Positions 23,928 through 37,287 of a stretch of 64,000 bases of DNA are shown here, piece after piece (the stretch's first letter is position 1; every line of letters begins with the position of its first letter). The stretch is from NCBI GenBank assembly GCA_007126035.1, contig SLCC01000086.1:1-64000 (forward strand), in the 5' to 3' direction. A program made the translations under genes and the position numbers. The notes under the pieces were generated by a model, which saw only the letters and a list, made by a program, of their open reading frames with translations, did no database searches and had not been told where the DNA came from. The DNA is from Gemmatimonadota bacterium (GTDB lineage Bacteria > Gemmatimonadota > Gemmatimonadetes > Longimicrobiales > RSA9).

Positions 23928-23993
23928 GGCAGGTGTCACGACATCGGCTGCTGGATCGTTCCATGTCGAATGGGCGCCACTCGAGCTGACGCC

Positions 23994-24473
23994 ATGGACT
24001 ATGAGCGGCTGTTCCGATCGCTTTACCCGCAGCTGTTCCGGTACCTGCATCGGTTGACGGGCGACGCGGATGCGGCCGAGGACGCTGCACAGGAGGCGTT
24101 CGTGCGACTGGCGCGAGGGAACTTGGACGAAGACGACGCCAAGCCGTGGCTGTTCGCGGTGGGTACGAATCTGGTCCGCGATGCGGCCCGCAAAGCGGAC
24201 CGCCACCGCCGCCTCGAGGTGCATGTGCCCCGCTCCTCCGCTCCTCCGCTGCCTGACGCCATCGCCGAGCGCAACGAAGCAGTGGCGGCGGTCAGGCGGG
24301 CGCTGGACCGGCTACCGGAGCGGGATCGCAAGATCTTGTTGATGCGGGAGGAAGGCTTCCAGTATGATGAGATCGCCCGGTCCATAGGAGTGGCGGCCAC
24401 GTCGGTGGGCACGCTCCTGGCCCGGGCCGGACGTCGTTTCGCGGCTGAGTTCGCCGCGACCGCACACGGATGA
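23994..24473 (+). CDS. ECF-type RNA polymerase sigma factor
   Basis: MDYERLFRSLYPQLFRYLHRLTGDADAAEDAAQEAFVRL...RALDRLPERDRKILLMREEGFQYDEIARSIGVAATSVGTLLARA. Confidence 0.93.
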   Translation: MDYERLFRSLYPQLFRYLHRLTGDADAAEDAAQEAFVRLARGNLDEDDAKPWLFAVGTNLVRDAARKADRHRRLEVHVPRSSAPPLPDAIAERNEAVAAVRRALDRLPERDRKILLMREEGFQYDEIARSIGVAATSVGTLLARAGRRFAAEFAATAHG

Positions 24474-25480
24474 GGGGCGGGATGTCGACACATCGTTCCG
24501 AGGGTGAGATCCAGGCGTTCCTGGACGACCAGCTCCTGGGCCGGGAGCGGGCGGCCATGGCGCAGCACCTCATGGGTTGCGCCGAGTGTCGCGCCCTGTA
24601 CGACGAGCTTCAGGCGGCCAAGTCCCTGGTCTCGGCGCAGATCGGGCTCCTGGACGTGGATCCGCCGGCAGTTCCCGAGCCGCGAGTCGCGCGGCGGCTG
24701 GCACGGGCGAGCGGGTCCCTGACGAAGGCTGCCATCCTGGTCCTTCTGGCGGCCGGCGCTGTGGCCGCCGCATCCAGCGCTCCGGTCCGGGACTGGGTGG
24801 TCCGGGCGGTGGACCGCCGAAGCGTGCCGGTCAGCCCCGAGCCCACATCCCCGCTTGCGGCGGTGCCAGCGGAACTGGCTGTGGCCCCGGCGTGGATCGA
24901 GGGTTCGGTGCTCGGCGAGGGAGGCGAGGCCCTGCCCTTCGCCCGTCTCGAGGTCCTGGGTGACACCATCTCGGGGTGGAGCGACGATGGCGGCACGTAT
25001 CGACTGGACGGCCTGCCAGGAGAGCGGTGGGTGGTACGTGCGACGCACCCGGGCTATCGGTCGATGGACGAAGAGGTGGTGCTGCCCGAGGAGGGTGGGC
25101 TCGAGCTGGATATACCGCTCGAGAAGCTGCCGGGCCCCACGCCCGAGCCGCTGGAGGGTTTCGAGCCGTTCCGCGTCACCTACACGCTGCCGGTCCTGCT
25201 GAACACGGAGGATGTGACCTCTGCTATCCAGCGCCGCTACCCGCCTGGCCTTGCGGAGCAGAGGTTCGACCGACAGGCGGTGCTCCGGCTGTGGCTGGAT
25301 GAGCAGGGCCGGGTCGCCCGCAGCACGCTGTATCGGTCGAGCGGTCAGAGCCAGCTGGATGTGCTGGCCCTCAGCGCTGGTCGGTTGATGCGATTCAGCC
25401 CGGCCGCCGCCGGGGACCAGCCGGTGCGGGTGATAGTCCTGATGCCGGTCCGGTTCGTACCGCCTCCGGACGAGTCCTGA
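24470..25480 (+). CDS. Anti-sigma factor (zinc-finger, one TM helix) with carboxypeptidase-regulatory-like and TonB C-terminal domains
   Basis: HRSEGEIQAFLDDQLLGRERAAMAQHLMGCAECRALYDEL; TM AAILVLLAAGAVAAASSA; WIEGSVLGEGGEALPFARLEVLGD...GTYRLDGLPGERW; C-term YPPGLAEQRFDRQAVLRLWLDEQGRVARSTLYRSSGQSQLDVLALSAGRLMRFSPA; ATGA overlap with the sigma gene. Confidence 0.85.
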   Translation: MRGGMSTHRSEGEIQAFLDDQLLGRERAAMAQHLMGCAECRALYDELQAAKSLVSAQIGLLDVDPPAVPEPRVARRLARASGSLTKAAILVLLAAGAVAAASSAPVRDWVVRAVDRRSVPVSPEPTSPLAAVPAELAVAPAWIEGSVLGEGGEALPFARLEVLGDTISGWSDDGGTYRLDGLPGERWVVRATHPGYRSMDEEVVLPEEGGLELDIPLEKLPGPTPEPLEGFEPFRVTYTLPVLLNTEDVTSAIQRRYPPGLAEQRFDRQAVLRLWLDEQGRVARSTLYRSSGQSQLDVLALSAGRLMRFSPAAAGDQPVRVIVLMPVRFVPPPDES

Positions 25481-34207: not shown

Positions 34208-36823
34208 ATGCCGAAGCAGGAAGAGACCCCACTAATGCGCCAGTGGCGCGAGGCCAAGTCGCGCCATCCTGATGCCATCGTGTTCTTCCGGGTCGGCGAC
34301 TTCTACGAGATGTTCTGCGAAGACGCCGAGGAGGGCTCCCGACTGCTGGGCCTCACCCTCACCACCCGTAACAACGGTGGCGCCGCGGATGTCCCGCTGG
34401 CCGGAATACCGGTCAGGGCGCGCAACGACTATGTCCAGCGTCTGGTTCGGTTGGGCCGGCGCGTGGCCATCTGTGAGCAGGTCGAGGACCCGGCGGAGGC
34501 GAAGGACATCGTGCGGCGGGAGGTGGTGGAGACGATCACTCCCGGCTCCGTCACGTCGGACGCCCTCCTGGACGAGCGCCGGAACAACTGGCTCGTGGCA
34601 CTGGTCGAGGCGGACGCCGGGGCTGCGGCCATCGCCGCGGCGGACATCAGCACCGGCGACTTCCTCGGGACGCGGGTTGCCGGGGAGCGGCTCGAGGCGG
34701 AGCTCGCCCGGTTCGAGCCCGCGGAGATCCTGCTCCCGCGCGCCAGGGAGGGCGCCCCCGGACGGGCTCCGCTCCTGGACGGCGTGAGCACCACGCACCG
34801 TCCCGACTGGCTGTTCGAGCCCGATCTGGCCGGCGACGAACTGCGGCGACACTTCGGACTCCACACCCTGGATGGCCTGGGGTTCCAGGAAGGCGACGAG
34901 CCCTTGATCGGCGCCCTGGGCGCGCTCCTGGTCTACATCCGGGAGGTCCAGCCCGCGGCGGCGGAAGGGCTGCGCCCGCCCCGCCTCGAGCGGCCTGGCG
35001 AGGCCATGGCCCTGGACGAGATGACCCGCCGGAACCTGGAGCTGGTGGCACCTCTCCGCGGAGACGGCCCTGCCGGTGCCGCTGATACACTGATCGACGT
35101 GATCGATGAGACCACCACCGCCATGGGCGCCCGGCTGCTACGCCGCTGGCTGCTCCGGCCGCTGGTGGCGCCGGAGCCCATCTGGCGGCGCCAGGAGGCG
35201 GTGGCCGAGCTGGTTGAGGACCCGGCGCTCCGCCGTGGCATTCGTGGCCAGATGAGAGAGGTCCGGGACCTGGAGCGGCTGGCGGGGAAGGTGGGTGCGG
35301 CTCGGGTCACGCCCCGTGAGATGTGGGCCCTCGGCTCATCGCTGGCCCGGCTGCCGGAGGTCCGGGCCGGCCTGGACGGCACCGTGGCGCCGCTCCTGGT
35401 GGAGTTGCGCCAGGAGCTGGACCCCATGGCCGACGTCCGTGCCGCCATCTCCGCCGCCGTCGCCGAGGATCCACCTGCCACCCTGATGGAGGGCGGCGTC
35501 ATCCGTGTCGGTCACGACCCGGAGCTGGACGGACTACGTGAGACGCGGGACGGGGCCCGTGACTTCATCGCCGCGCTCCAGACACGGGAGCGGGAGCGGA
35601 CCGGGATATCCTCATTGAAGGTGGGCTACAACAAGGTCTTCGGGTACTTCCTGGAGGTGACGAAGTCCAATCTGGGGCGGGTTCCCCCGGAGTACCGGCG
35701 CAAGCAGACGCTGGCCAACTCGGAGCGCTACGTGACCGAGGAGCTGGACGAGTGGGAGGCGAAGGTGATGGGCGCGGAGGAGCGGATCGCCGAGCTGGAG
35801 GCCCGCCTCTTCAACGAGCTGCGGCGCAACGTGGCCGAGTCGGTGCCCAGGCTCCTGGCCACCGCCGCCCGGGTGGCAGAGCTGGACGTCCTGGCCGGCC
35901 TGGCCCGGCTGGCAGAGCGACGGCACTACGTACGGCCCGACGTCCATACCGGGTTCGACCTGGAGATACGGGACGGACGGCACCCGGTGGTGGAGACCAT
36001 GATGCCACGGGAGGAGTTCATCCCCAACGACGTCGTCCTGGGTCCCGAGGCGCGGGTCATGATACTCACCGGCCCGAACATGGCGGGGAAGAGCACGCTG
36101 CTGCGCCAGGTGGGCCTGATCCAGATCCTGGCCCAGATCGGCGGCTTCGTCCCCGCCAGGTCGGCCCGGCTACCCATCTGCGACCGGGTCTTCACCCGCG
36201 TAGGGGCTTCGGACAACCTGGTCCGGGGCCAGTCCACGTTCATGGTGGAGATGAGCGAGACGGCCTCGATCCTCCACAACGCAACCGACAGGTCGCTGGT
36301 GCTCCTGGACGAGATCGGCCGGGGTACCGCAACGTACGACGGGGTGAGCATCGCCTGGGCCGTGACCGAGCACCTCCACGAGCGGACAGGCGCCAAGACC
36401 ATCTTCGCCACCCACTACCACGAGCTCACCCAACTGGCCGACCTGCTGCCCGCGCTGGTGAACGTCAACGTGGCGGTCAAAGAGGTGGGCGACCACATCA
36501 TCTTCCTGCGCCGTCTGGAGTCTGGCGGCGCCGACCGGTCCTACGGGATCCAGGTGGGCAGGCTGGCCGGCCTGCCGCCGGGCGTGGTCGAGCGGGCCCG
36601 GGAGATCCTGGCCGAGCTGGAAGGCAGTCACACGAGGCACGGGGAGGGGCTGGGCCGGAGAGGTGCCCGCCGACCGGCCAGCACCGCGCCTCCCGATCAG
36701 CTATCGTTCTTCGCCGCGCCCGAGCACCCGGTCGTGGAGAAGATACGTACCTTGGATCTGGAGCGGTTGACACCCCTGGAGGCGCTCAACCGCCTTGCAC
36801 AGTTGAAGGAGGAAGTCGAGTGA
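34208..36823 (+). CDS. mutS: DNA mismatch repair protein MutS
   Basis: TPLMRQWREAKSRHPDAIVFFRVGDFYEMF; TGPNMAGKSTLLRQVGLI; LLDEIGRGTATYDGVSIAWAV; ATHYHELTQL. Confidence 0.97.
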   Translation: MPKQEETPLMRQWREAKSRHPDAIVFFRVGDFYEMFCEDAEEGSRLLGLTLTTRNNGGAADVPLAGIPVRARNDYVQRLVRLGRRVAICEQVEDPAEAKDIVRREVVETITPGSVTSDALLDERRNNWLVALVEADAGAAAIAAADISTGDFLGTRVAGERLEAELARFEPAEILLPRAREGAPGRAPLLDGVSTTHRPDWLFEPDLAGDELRRHFGLHTLDGLGFQEGDEPLIGALGALLVYIREVQPAAAEGLRPPRLERPGEAMALDEMTRRNLELVAPLRGDGPAGAADTLIDVIDETTTAMGARLLRRWLLRPLVAPEPIWRRQEAVAELVEDPALRRGIRGQMREVRDLERLAGKVGAARVTPREMWALGSSLARLPEVRAGLDGTVAPLLVELRQELDPMADVRAAISAAVAEDPPATLMEGGVIRVGHDPELDGLRETRDGARDFIAALQTRERERTGISSLKVGYNKVFGYFLEVTKSNLGRVPPEYRRKQTLANSERYVTEELDEWEAKVMGAEERIAELEARLFNELRRNVAESVPRLLATAARVAELDVLAGLARLAERRHYVRPDVHTGFDLEIRDGRHPVVETMMPREEFIPNDVVLGPEARVMILTGPNMAGKSTLLRQVGLIQILAQIGGFVPARSARLPICDRVFTRVGASDNLVRGQSTFMVEMSETASILHNATDRSLVLLDEIGRGTATYDGVSIAWAVTEHLHERTGAKTIFATHYHELTQLADLLPALVNVNVAVKEVGDHIIFLRRLESGGADRSYGIQVGRLAGLPPGVVERAREILAELEGSHTRHGEGLGRRGARRPASTAPPDQLSFFAAPEHPVVEKIRTLDLERLTPLEALNRLAQLKEEVE

Positions 36824-37287
36824 AGAAGCTCGCAGCCACCACCGGAGCTCGGGAGACAGCGCTGTTGCTGATGGCGCCGATCGCCGCAGCCGCGCTGATG
36901 ACAGGGTGCGCCGAAGAGGCTGTCACCATCGAAGAACCACAGGTCATCGCCACCGAGGAATCACCGTTCTCCTATCCGGCTGCCCTCTGGGACCAGGACC
37001 TGGAAGGAGAAACGGTCATCATGGTCCGGGTCACCGAGGACGGTGCCGTGGACAGCGTCTACGTGCTTGAGTCCAGTGGCGAGGCCGCCTTCGACTCGGT
37101 AGCGGTGAACGGGGCGAGGGACCTCCGGTTCCAGCCAGGGCGCCGTGATGACCGCCAGGCAACGATGTGGGCAAGGCTGCCCGTACGGTTCCACAAGGGC
37201 GGGGCAGAGGCGGAGACGGACGGTGAGGTCGAGCCCGGACCAGAGCCCCGGGCCGACTCCAGGCCAACCACCGGAGCCGAGCCGTGA
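36820..37287 (+). CDS. Lipoprotein with TonB C-terminal-like domain
   Basis: GTG start overlapping the mutS stop; lipobox LMTGC; VIMVRVTEDGAVDSVYVLESSGEAAFDSVAVNGARDLRFQPGRRDDRQATMWARLPVRF. Confidence 0.72.
   Translation: MKKLAATTGARETALLLMAPIAAAALMTGCAEEAVTIEEPQVIATEESPFSYPAALWDQDLEGETVIMVRVTEDGAVDSVYVLESSGEAAFDSVAVNGARDLRFQPGRRDDRQATMWARLPVRFHKGGAEAETDGEVEPGPEPRADSRPTTGAEP

Follow-up and report, generated by a model that had tools for sequence, protein, structure and literature searches.

A zinc-binding anti-sigma factor fused to CarboxypepD_reg and TonB_C domains: a candidate one-protein variant of cell-surface signalling in Gemmatimonadota

Several described systems resemble parts of the locus reported here. 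The receptor FoxA binds FoxR through its signalling domain and shields it from proteolysis (PMC11637429). The PUMA3 protein VreA has lost the receptor barrel and has a TolA/TonB-type C-terminal domain (PMC2729926). In Bacteroides, the known signalling domain of ECF-controlled SusC proteins is STN, not the NTE; the latter, a CarboxypepD_reg domain, is stated to have an unknown function that is distinct from STN signalling (PMC7782687).

Here we describe a gene from a 64,000-nucleotide stretch of a Gemmatimonadota bacterium (contig SLCC01000086.1, positions 1 to 64,000; this whole stretch is called the window), whose product joins a zinc-binding anti-sigma (ZAS) domain to a periplasmic part composed of CarboxypepD_reg (CPD) and TonB_C domains. 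Judged from sequence comparison, this protein most likely represents receptor/anti-sigma cell-surface signalling in a one-protein form.

The fusion protein and its domains

The features of the locus, in window positions, are:

23934..23960, + strand: predicted autoregulatory ECF promoter, TGTCACGA-N15-CGTT (-35 TGTCAC at 23934-23939, -10 CGTT at 23957-23960)
23994..24473, + strand: ECF sigma factor (Sigma70_r2 5e-13, Sigma70_r4_2 6e-13)
24470..25480, + strand: fusion protein, anti-sigma + CarboxypepD_reg + TonB_C, 336 aa (alternative start Met5 at 24482)
24491..24592, + strand: zinc-binding anti-sigma (ZAS/zf-HC2) domain, H8...H33-x3-C37-x2-C40, with zf-HC2 above cut-off
24719..24787, + strand: single transmembrane helix, orthologous to the anti-sigma transmembrane helix and without the TonB-type histidine (alignment, hydrophobicity)
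24788..24895, + strand: Pro-rich periplasmic linker, which is the junction; anti-sigma tail and signal peptide are missing relative to the sister genome G009 (comparison with L038 6887-8289)
24896..25120, + strand: CarboxypepD_reg domain, SusC NTE-like, with a transthyretin-like fold (Pfam, alignment with receptor CPDs, Foldseek)
25229..25459, + strand: TonB_C domain (Pfam, NCBIfam, Foldseek, profile matches)

The original prediction, made from the letters of the window, had read this gene as an anti-sigma factor with one transmembrane helix, a CarboxypepD_reg-like module and a TonB_C-like tail, coupled to an ECF sigma gene. This composition was borne out. All three domains scored above their Pfam cut-offs: zf-HC2 with 28.5 bits versus 22.2 (residues 14-41, whole protein searched), CarboxypepD_reg with 38.8 versus 32.3 (residues 143-217) and TonB_C with 39.8 versus 24.6 (residues 254-330). 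The failure of a domain search to support TonB_C, which had been named as a possible refutation, was therefore not seen, and tonB_Cterm of NCBIfam (TIGR01352) also matched, with 41.7 bits versus a cut-off of 27.1. The sole hydrophobic stretch of the protein lies at about residues 84-106. The coupling to an ECF sigma factor likewise stood, since the start of the fusion ORF overlaps the stop codon of the adjoining gene (ATGA, from the ORF list) and that gene encodes Sigma70 domains. Anti-sigma proteins of relatives start with 'MTH..EG', which makes Met5 (24482) a possible alternative start, and all domains are retained with either start. The H/H/C/C positions of the ZAS domain were invariant in an alignment of 14 orthologues, and the profile of this domain matched RsiW, ChrR and DdvA.

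An AlphaFold2 model, limited to residues 129-336 (full-length alignments placed the transmembrane and CPD rows wrongly), had a mean pLDDT of 89 and confirmed both expected folds. For the N-terminal half of the model, Foldseek found carboxypeptidase D domains of transthyretin-like fold and the NTE domain of SusC (9hfj, TM 0.80 on target; 5aq0). For the C-terminal half it found the TonB globular domain in complex with TbpA (9dc4, E 3.5e-4, prob 1.00, TM 0.69 on target). The profile of the periplasmic part matched several solved TonB structures and RagA, and the CPD of the fusion could be aligned with the CPDs of receptors.

The (S/A/T)xxxH (SxxxH-type) histidine is the feature of TonB that couples it to ExbB/ExbD. 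It was present in the N-terminal transmembrane helix of 14/14 TonB homologues from the same genome and its relatives. The transmembrane helix of the fusion has no histidine and aligns with that of anti-sigma factors. A role as TonB energy transducer was therefore rejected, although TonB_C is above cut-off, and from established TonB biology the fusion should not be energised by ExbB/ExbD.

TonB_C was also found in other proteins. At 36820-37287 (+) of the window, mutS and a cysteine/cystathionine synthase-like gene flank a gene for a small lipoprotein-like protein with TonB_C (47.6 bits). Fusions of BlaR1/M56 peptidases with TonB_C occur in the same genome and in a relative, and in G002 a short membrane protein that carries TonB_C, but apparently no M56 part, comes directly after a BlaI-like repressor (regions L004 568-1965, L207 2677-3687 and L218 2759-3871). 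Proteins with two tandem TonB_C domains were observed at L220 and L221, and up to four occur in one frame (G044:C7) among relatives. TonB_C thus seems to have been attached repeatedly to inner-membrane sensors in this phylum.

The operon in relatives and the origin of the fusion

Within the taxonomic family the conserved gene order is TrpS, DUF2911 protein, sigma, anti-sigma, X, a small ORF and a UDG-like gene. In most relatives X is a protein of ~740 aa with a beta-signal-like terminal F. Pfam searches of 14 X proteins detected CarboxypepD_reg in 13, and Plug and the TonB_dep_Rec barrel in 8 each, but no STN domain. The sigma/anti-sigma pair of the relatives therefore adjoins a receptor-like CarboxypepD_reg/plug/barrel gene, which upholds the link to TonB-dependent-receptor signalling made in the original prediction. 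The relatives' anti-sigma proteins have zf-HC2 (13/14), a transmembrane helix and an additional tail of ~110 aa; the model of this tail was confidently all-beta, with only weak Foldseek matches (adhesin-like 4ygu, E 0.04, prob 0.89).

When GTDB was scanned with the alignment of the sigma factor, 63 loci were obtained across Gemmatimonadota, most of which keep the sigma/anti-sigma neighbour arrangement. The anti-sigma tail and the downstream receptor occurred together in 36/63, and 12 loci with the receptor-like gene upstream formed a separate sigma clade. Within this set TonB_C was limited to G009, as a separate gene, and the window, as a fusion. The fusion draws attention to a widely conserved, apparently self-regulated sigma/anti-sigma/receptor operon of this phylum. 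A paralogous system in the same genome (L066 4074-7961, G000:C215), with a receptor-like outer-membrane protein upstream of sigma and ZAS anti-sigma genes, resembles the receptor-upstream clade. The same sigma/anti-sigma/receptor operon as in the relatives was also seen on a contig labelled as a Gammaproteobacteria MAG (L146, SB0675_bin_31), either by transfer or because the bin is mislabelled.

The sigma factor of the window is 55-63% identical to its orthologues. Its gene probably starts at ATG 23994 (159 aa) rather than at 23970 as in the ORF list, because relatives begin the gene at the equivalent codon. A GTCAC-N16/17-CGTT element was found 5' of the orthologous sigma gene in all 18 loci tested. 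The strict pattern TGTCACRA-N14/16-CGTT had 2 matches in the whole genome to which the window belongs (G000) and 19 across nine relatives (one to three per genome), and a reversed-pattern control had none in these ten genomes. The second strict G000 match, at C158:19658, precedes an asparagine-synthase-like gene, and this match shows no clear conservation. Given the few genome-wide matches and the motif 5' of the sigma gene, we predict autoregulation of the operon and a small regulon. TGTCAC/CGTT also occurs 5' of CarboxypepD_reg receptor-like genes in two relatives (L188 1501-1527, G005:C28; L199 1501-1527, G002:C628), which are possible additional regulon members.

The closest locus to that of the window is in G009 (isolate 0813_bin10, GTDB record JAHWKI010000027.1), which belongs to the same family. 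In the sigma tree these loci pair as sisters (support 90/95), and both lack the receptor gene. In G009 the anti-sigma gene is followed, with overlapping stop and start, by a short ORF with a signal peptide, CarboxypepD_reg (50 bits) and TonB_C (52 bits). The N-terminal part of the fusion is about 47% identical to the N-terminus of the G009 anti-sigma factor over 120 codons, and its CPD-TonB_C part is 47% identical to the G009 CPD-TonB_C protein over 197 codons. The pieces are joined in frame, and neither the signal peptide nor the anti-sigma tail of G009 is retained. Counted at first, second and third codon positions, the CPD-TonB_C part differs from G009 at 67, 65 and 112 sites and the anti-sigma part at 44, 43 and 70; both halves have changed most at third positions, as expected for coding sequence.

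Among 12 genomes of the family, the orthologous receptor was found in eight, with 882-1068 bits. The best receptor match in G000 and G009 was only a paralogue of ~260-310 bits, and the loci of G001 and G004 break at contig ends. Relocation of the orthologous receptor within the window's own genome was rejected, as the best match there (C143) scored 262 bits versus 882-1068 for true orthologues; with this low score, and with paralogues of similar score in genomes that keep the operon receptor, C143 is itself taken to be a paralogue.

No further fusion was found when 394 genomes of the class were searched with the fusion, and a search of 395 genomes of the phylum with the CPD-TonB_C protein gave no CPD + TonB_C protein beyond G000 and G009. 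A query for related loci with the fusion protein had no matches. G002:C137 and G162:C4, considered as additional CPD + TonB_C cases, were both BlaR1-like with TonB_C and were rejected.

Gene content at the two loci shows that a barrel-less CarboxypepD_reg + TonB_C module stands in for the lost receptor, as a separate predicted secreted protein in G009 and as an anti-sigma fusion in the window, and that in the window it also replaces the anti-sigma factor's own beta-rich periplasmic tail. From the distribution of these forms and the sigma tree we infer the order receptor, barrel-less CPD-TonB_C protein, fusion. By this comparison the fusion is a derived, lineage-specific form of the two-gene arrangement still found in G009. 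Absence of the fusion from close relatives had been named beforehand as a sign of an artefact; the sister indeed lacks the fusion, but it encodes the corresponding pieces in two neighbouring genes. We regard these conclusions on the sequence and evolution of the fusion as strong.

A proposed mechanism and its alternatives

We have moderate confidence that the fusion is a derived single-chain version of the ECF-sigma/anti-sigma/CarboxypepD_reg-receptor signalling operon and that it works as follows. The ZAS domain would sequester the sigma factor in the cytoplasm, and the CarboxypepD_reg/TonB_C pair would serve as periplasmic sensor. Without being energised, TonB_C might dock the protein to an outer-membrane partner, for example the plug or TonB-box region of a receptor encoded elsewhere. 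A change in docking (loss or gain) would let regulated proteolysis act on the linker or the transmembrane helix of the anti-sigma chain. Once freed, the sigma factor would use the TGTCAC/CGTT promoter to transcribe little more than its own operon. A counterpoint comes from Pseudomonas, in which the PUMA3 regulon was unaffected by deletion of VreA under phosphate starvation (PMC4971064).

Since no operon receptor examined has a detectable STN domain, the CPD appears to be the best candidate for the signalling domain here. It should be noted, however, that a candidate partner of the CPD, the tail of the anti-sigma factor, was lost in the fusion, and the same CPD contact may not persist. Fusions of neighbouring genes are natural evidence of products working together, and this one ties the receptor CarboxypepD_reg domain, whose role in SusC is described as unknown (PMC7782687), to anti-sigma control. 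A broader and distinctly tentative proposal is that CarboxypepD_reg, the NTE of SusC-type receptors, could be the anti-sigma-coupling domain of a phylum-wide ZAS-type cell-surface signalling, and that in the window receptor, sensor and anti-sigma factor might have collapsed into a single chain, with a borrowed TonB_C that is not energised as its means of docking to other outer-membrane receptors.

In a special case of the single-chain explanation, which builds on the original prediction, TonB_C would touch TonB-dependent receptors directly and read their occupancy, giving a one-protein route from the outer membrane to the sigma factor. The TonB_C domain resembles in its fold the globular domain of TonB solved with TbpA, the genome has 27 receptor-barrel matches, of which 25 are over cut-off, and the authors of the VreA study proposed likewise for its TolA/TonB-like domain (PMC2729926). 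Against this, the transmembrane helix is not of the ExbBD type, and TonB_C is also carried here by BlaR1-type peptidases and a lipoprotein-like protein, so that a more general role may apply. We consider direct reading of receptors possible but somewhat doubtful.

Alternatively, the added periplasmic domains might be a mere stabilising or spacer tail on an ordinary ZAS anti-sigma factor, which has lost its sensory tail and is under constitutive or redox/zinc-type control. The fusion does lack the ancestral beta-rich tail that the group conserves, and among the genomes searched it is unique to one. However, both added domains keep their core motifs, high-confidence folds and coding constraint, and the two-gene form of G009 retains both beside the same operon, which makes a passive tail unlikely.

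The TonB_C part could also sense peptidoglycan or the state of the envelope instead of a receptor, as in a general envelope-stress anti-sigma factor. The occurrence of TonB_C on other inner-membrane sensors of the phylum, including BlaR1-M56 proteins, fits this idea, whereas the ancestry of the operon points to a receptor gene and not to a cell-wall gene; we think it improbable. Finally, the fusion is known from one MAG, its sister is unfused and no second genome of the genus was among those searched, but an assembly error, in which a collapsed stretch of ~0.4 kb joined two adjacent genes of a G009-like organism, is unlikely. The two halves meet in frame and at clean domain borders, well-defined pieces (exactly the tail domain and the signal peptide) are removed while the Pro-rich linker is left, and the junction lies inside a contig of 66.7 kb.

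Comparison with known systems

BlaR1-type M56 peptidases with TonB_C, as in the same genome (L004), are likewise inner-membrane signalling proteins with a periplasmic TonB_C, but they belong to protease/BlaI-type signalling, unrelated to a sigma factor. Class I (ZAS) anti-sigma factors such as RsiW, ChrR and RsrA share with the fusion the zinc-binding HX3CX2C domain and the location beside an ECF gene, and RsiW also has one transmembrane helix after the ZAS domain. The difference lies in the periplasmic part, which in the window protein consists of CarboxypepD_reg and TonB_C; we know of no other ZAS protein with this combination.

The promoter signature of ECF41, TGTCACA-n16-CGTC, is very similar to the TGTCAC-N16/17-CGTT element found here, and ECF41 likewise has a very narrow regulon centred on neighbouring genes (PMC3426412). 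However, the sigma factors described here are about 159-167 aa long and end shortly after region 4, without the C-terminal extension that defines ECF41, and a membrane anti-sigma factor is present at the locus.

FecI/FecR/FecA and FoxI/FoxR/FoxA resemble the operon of the relatives in combining an outer-membrane receptor that has an N-terminal periplasmic domain with a single-pass anti-sigma factor and an ECF sigma factor. The relatives differ in using a ZAS anti-sigma factor and CarboxypepD_reg; zf-HC2 takes the place of FecR, and no STN was found. Unlike FecA-type signalling, the window operon has no dedicated receptor gene, and no orthologue was found elsewhere in the genome.

PUMA3 of Pseudomonas aeruginosa (VreA/VreI/VreR) likewise combines an ECF sigma factor and an anti-sigma factor with a barrel-less receptor-like partner that has a periplasmic N-terminal domain and a TolA/TonB-type C-terminal domain (PMC2729926, PMC4971064). 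Its three genes lie in one operon, which parallels the two-gene form of G009. However, the N-terminal domain of VreA is STN, whereas G009 and the window have CarboxypepD_reg; VreR is a FecR-type sigma regulator and the anti-sigma factor of the window is ZAS; and VreA is a separate protein, whereas the module of the window is fused into the anti-sigma factor. Together with VreA, the module described here would be a second, apparently independent case of a TonB-like domain replacing a receptor barrel.
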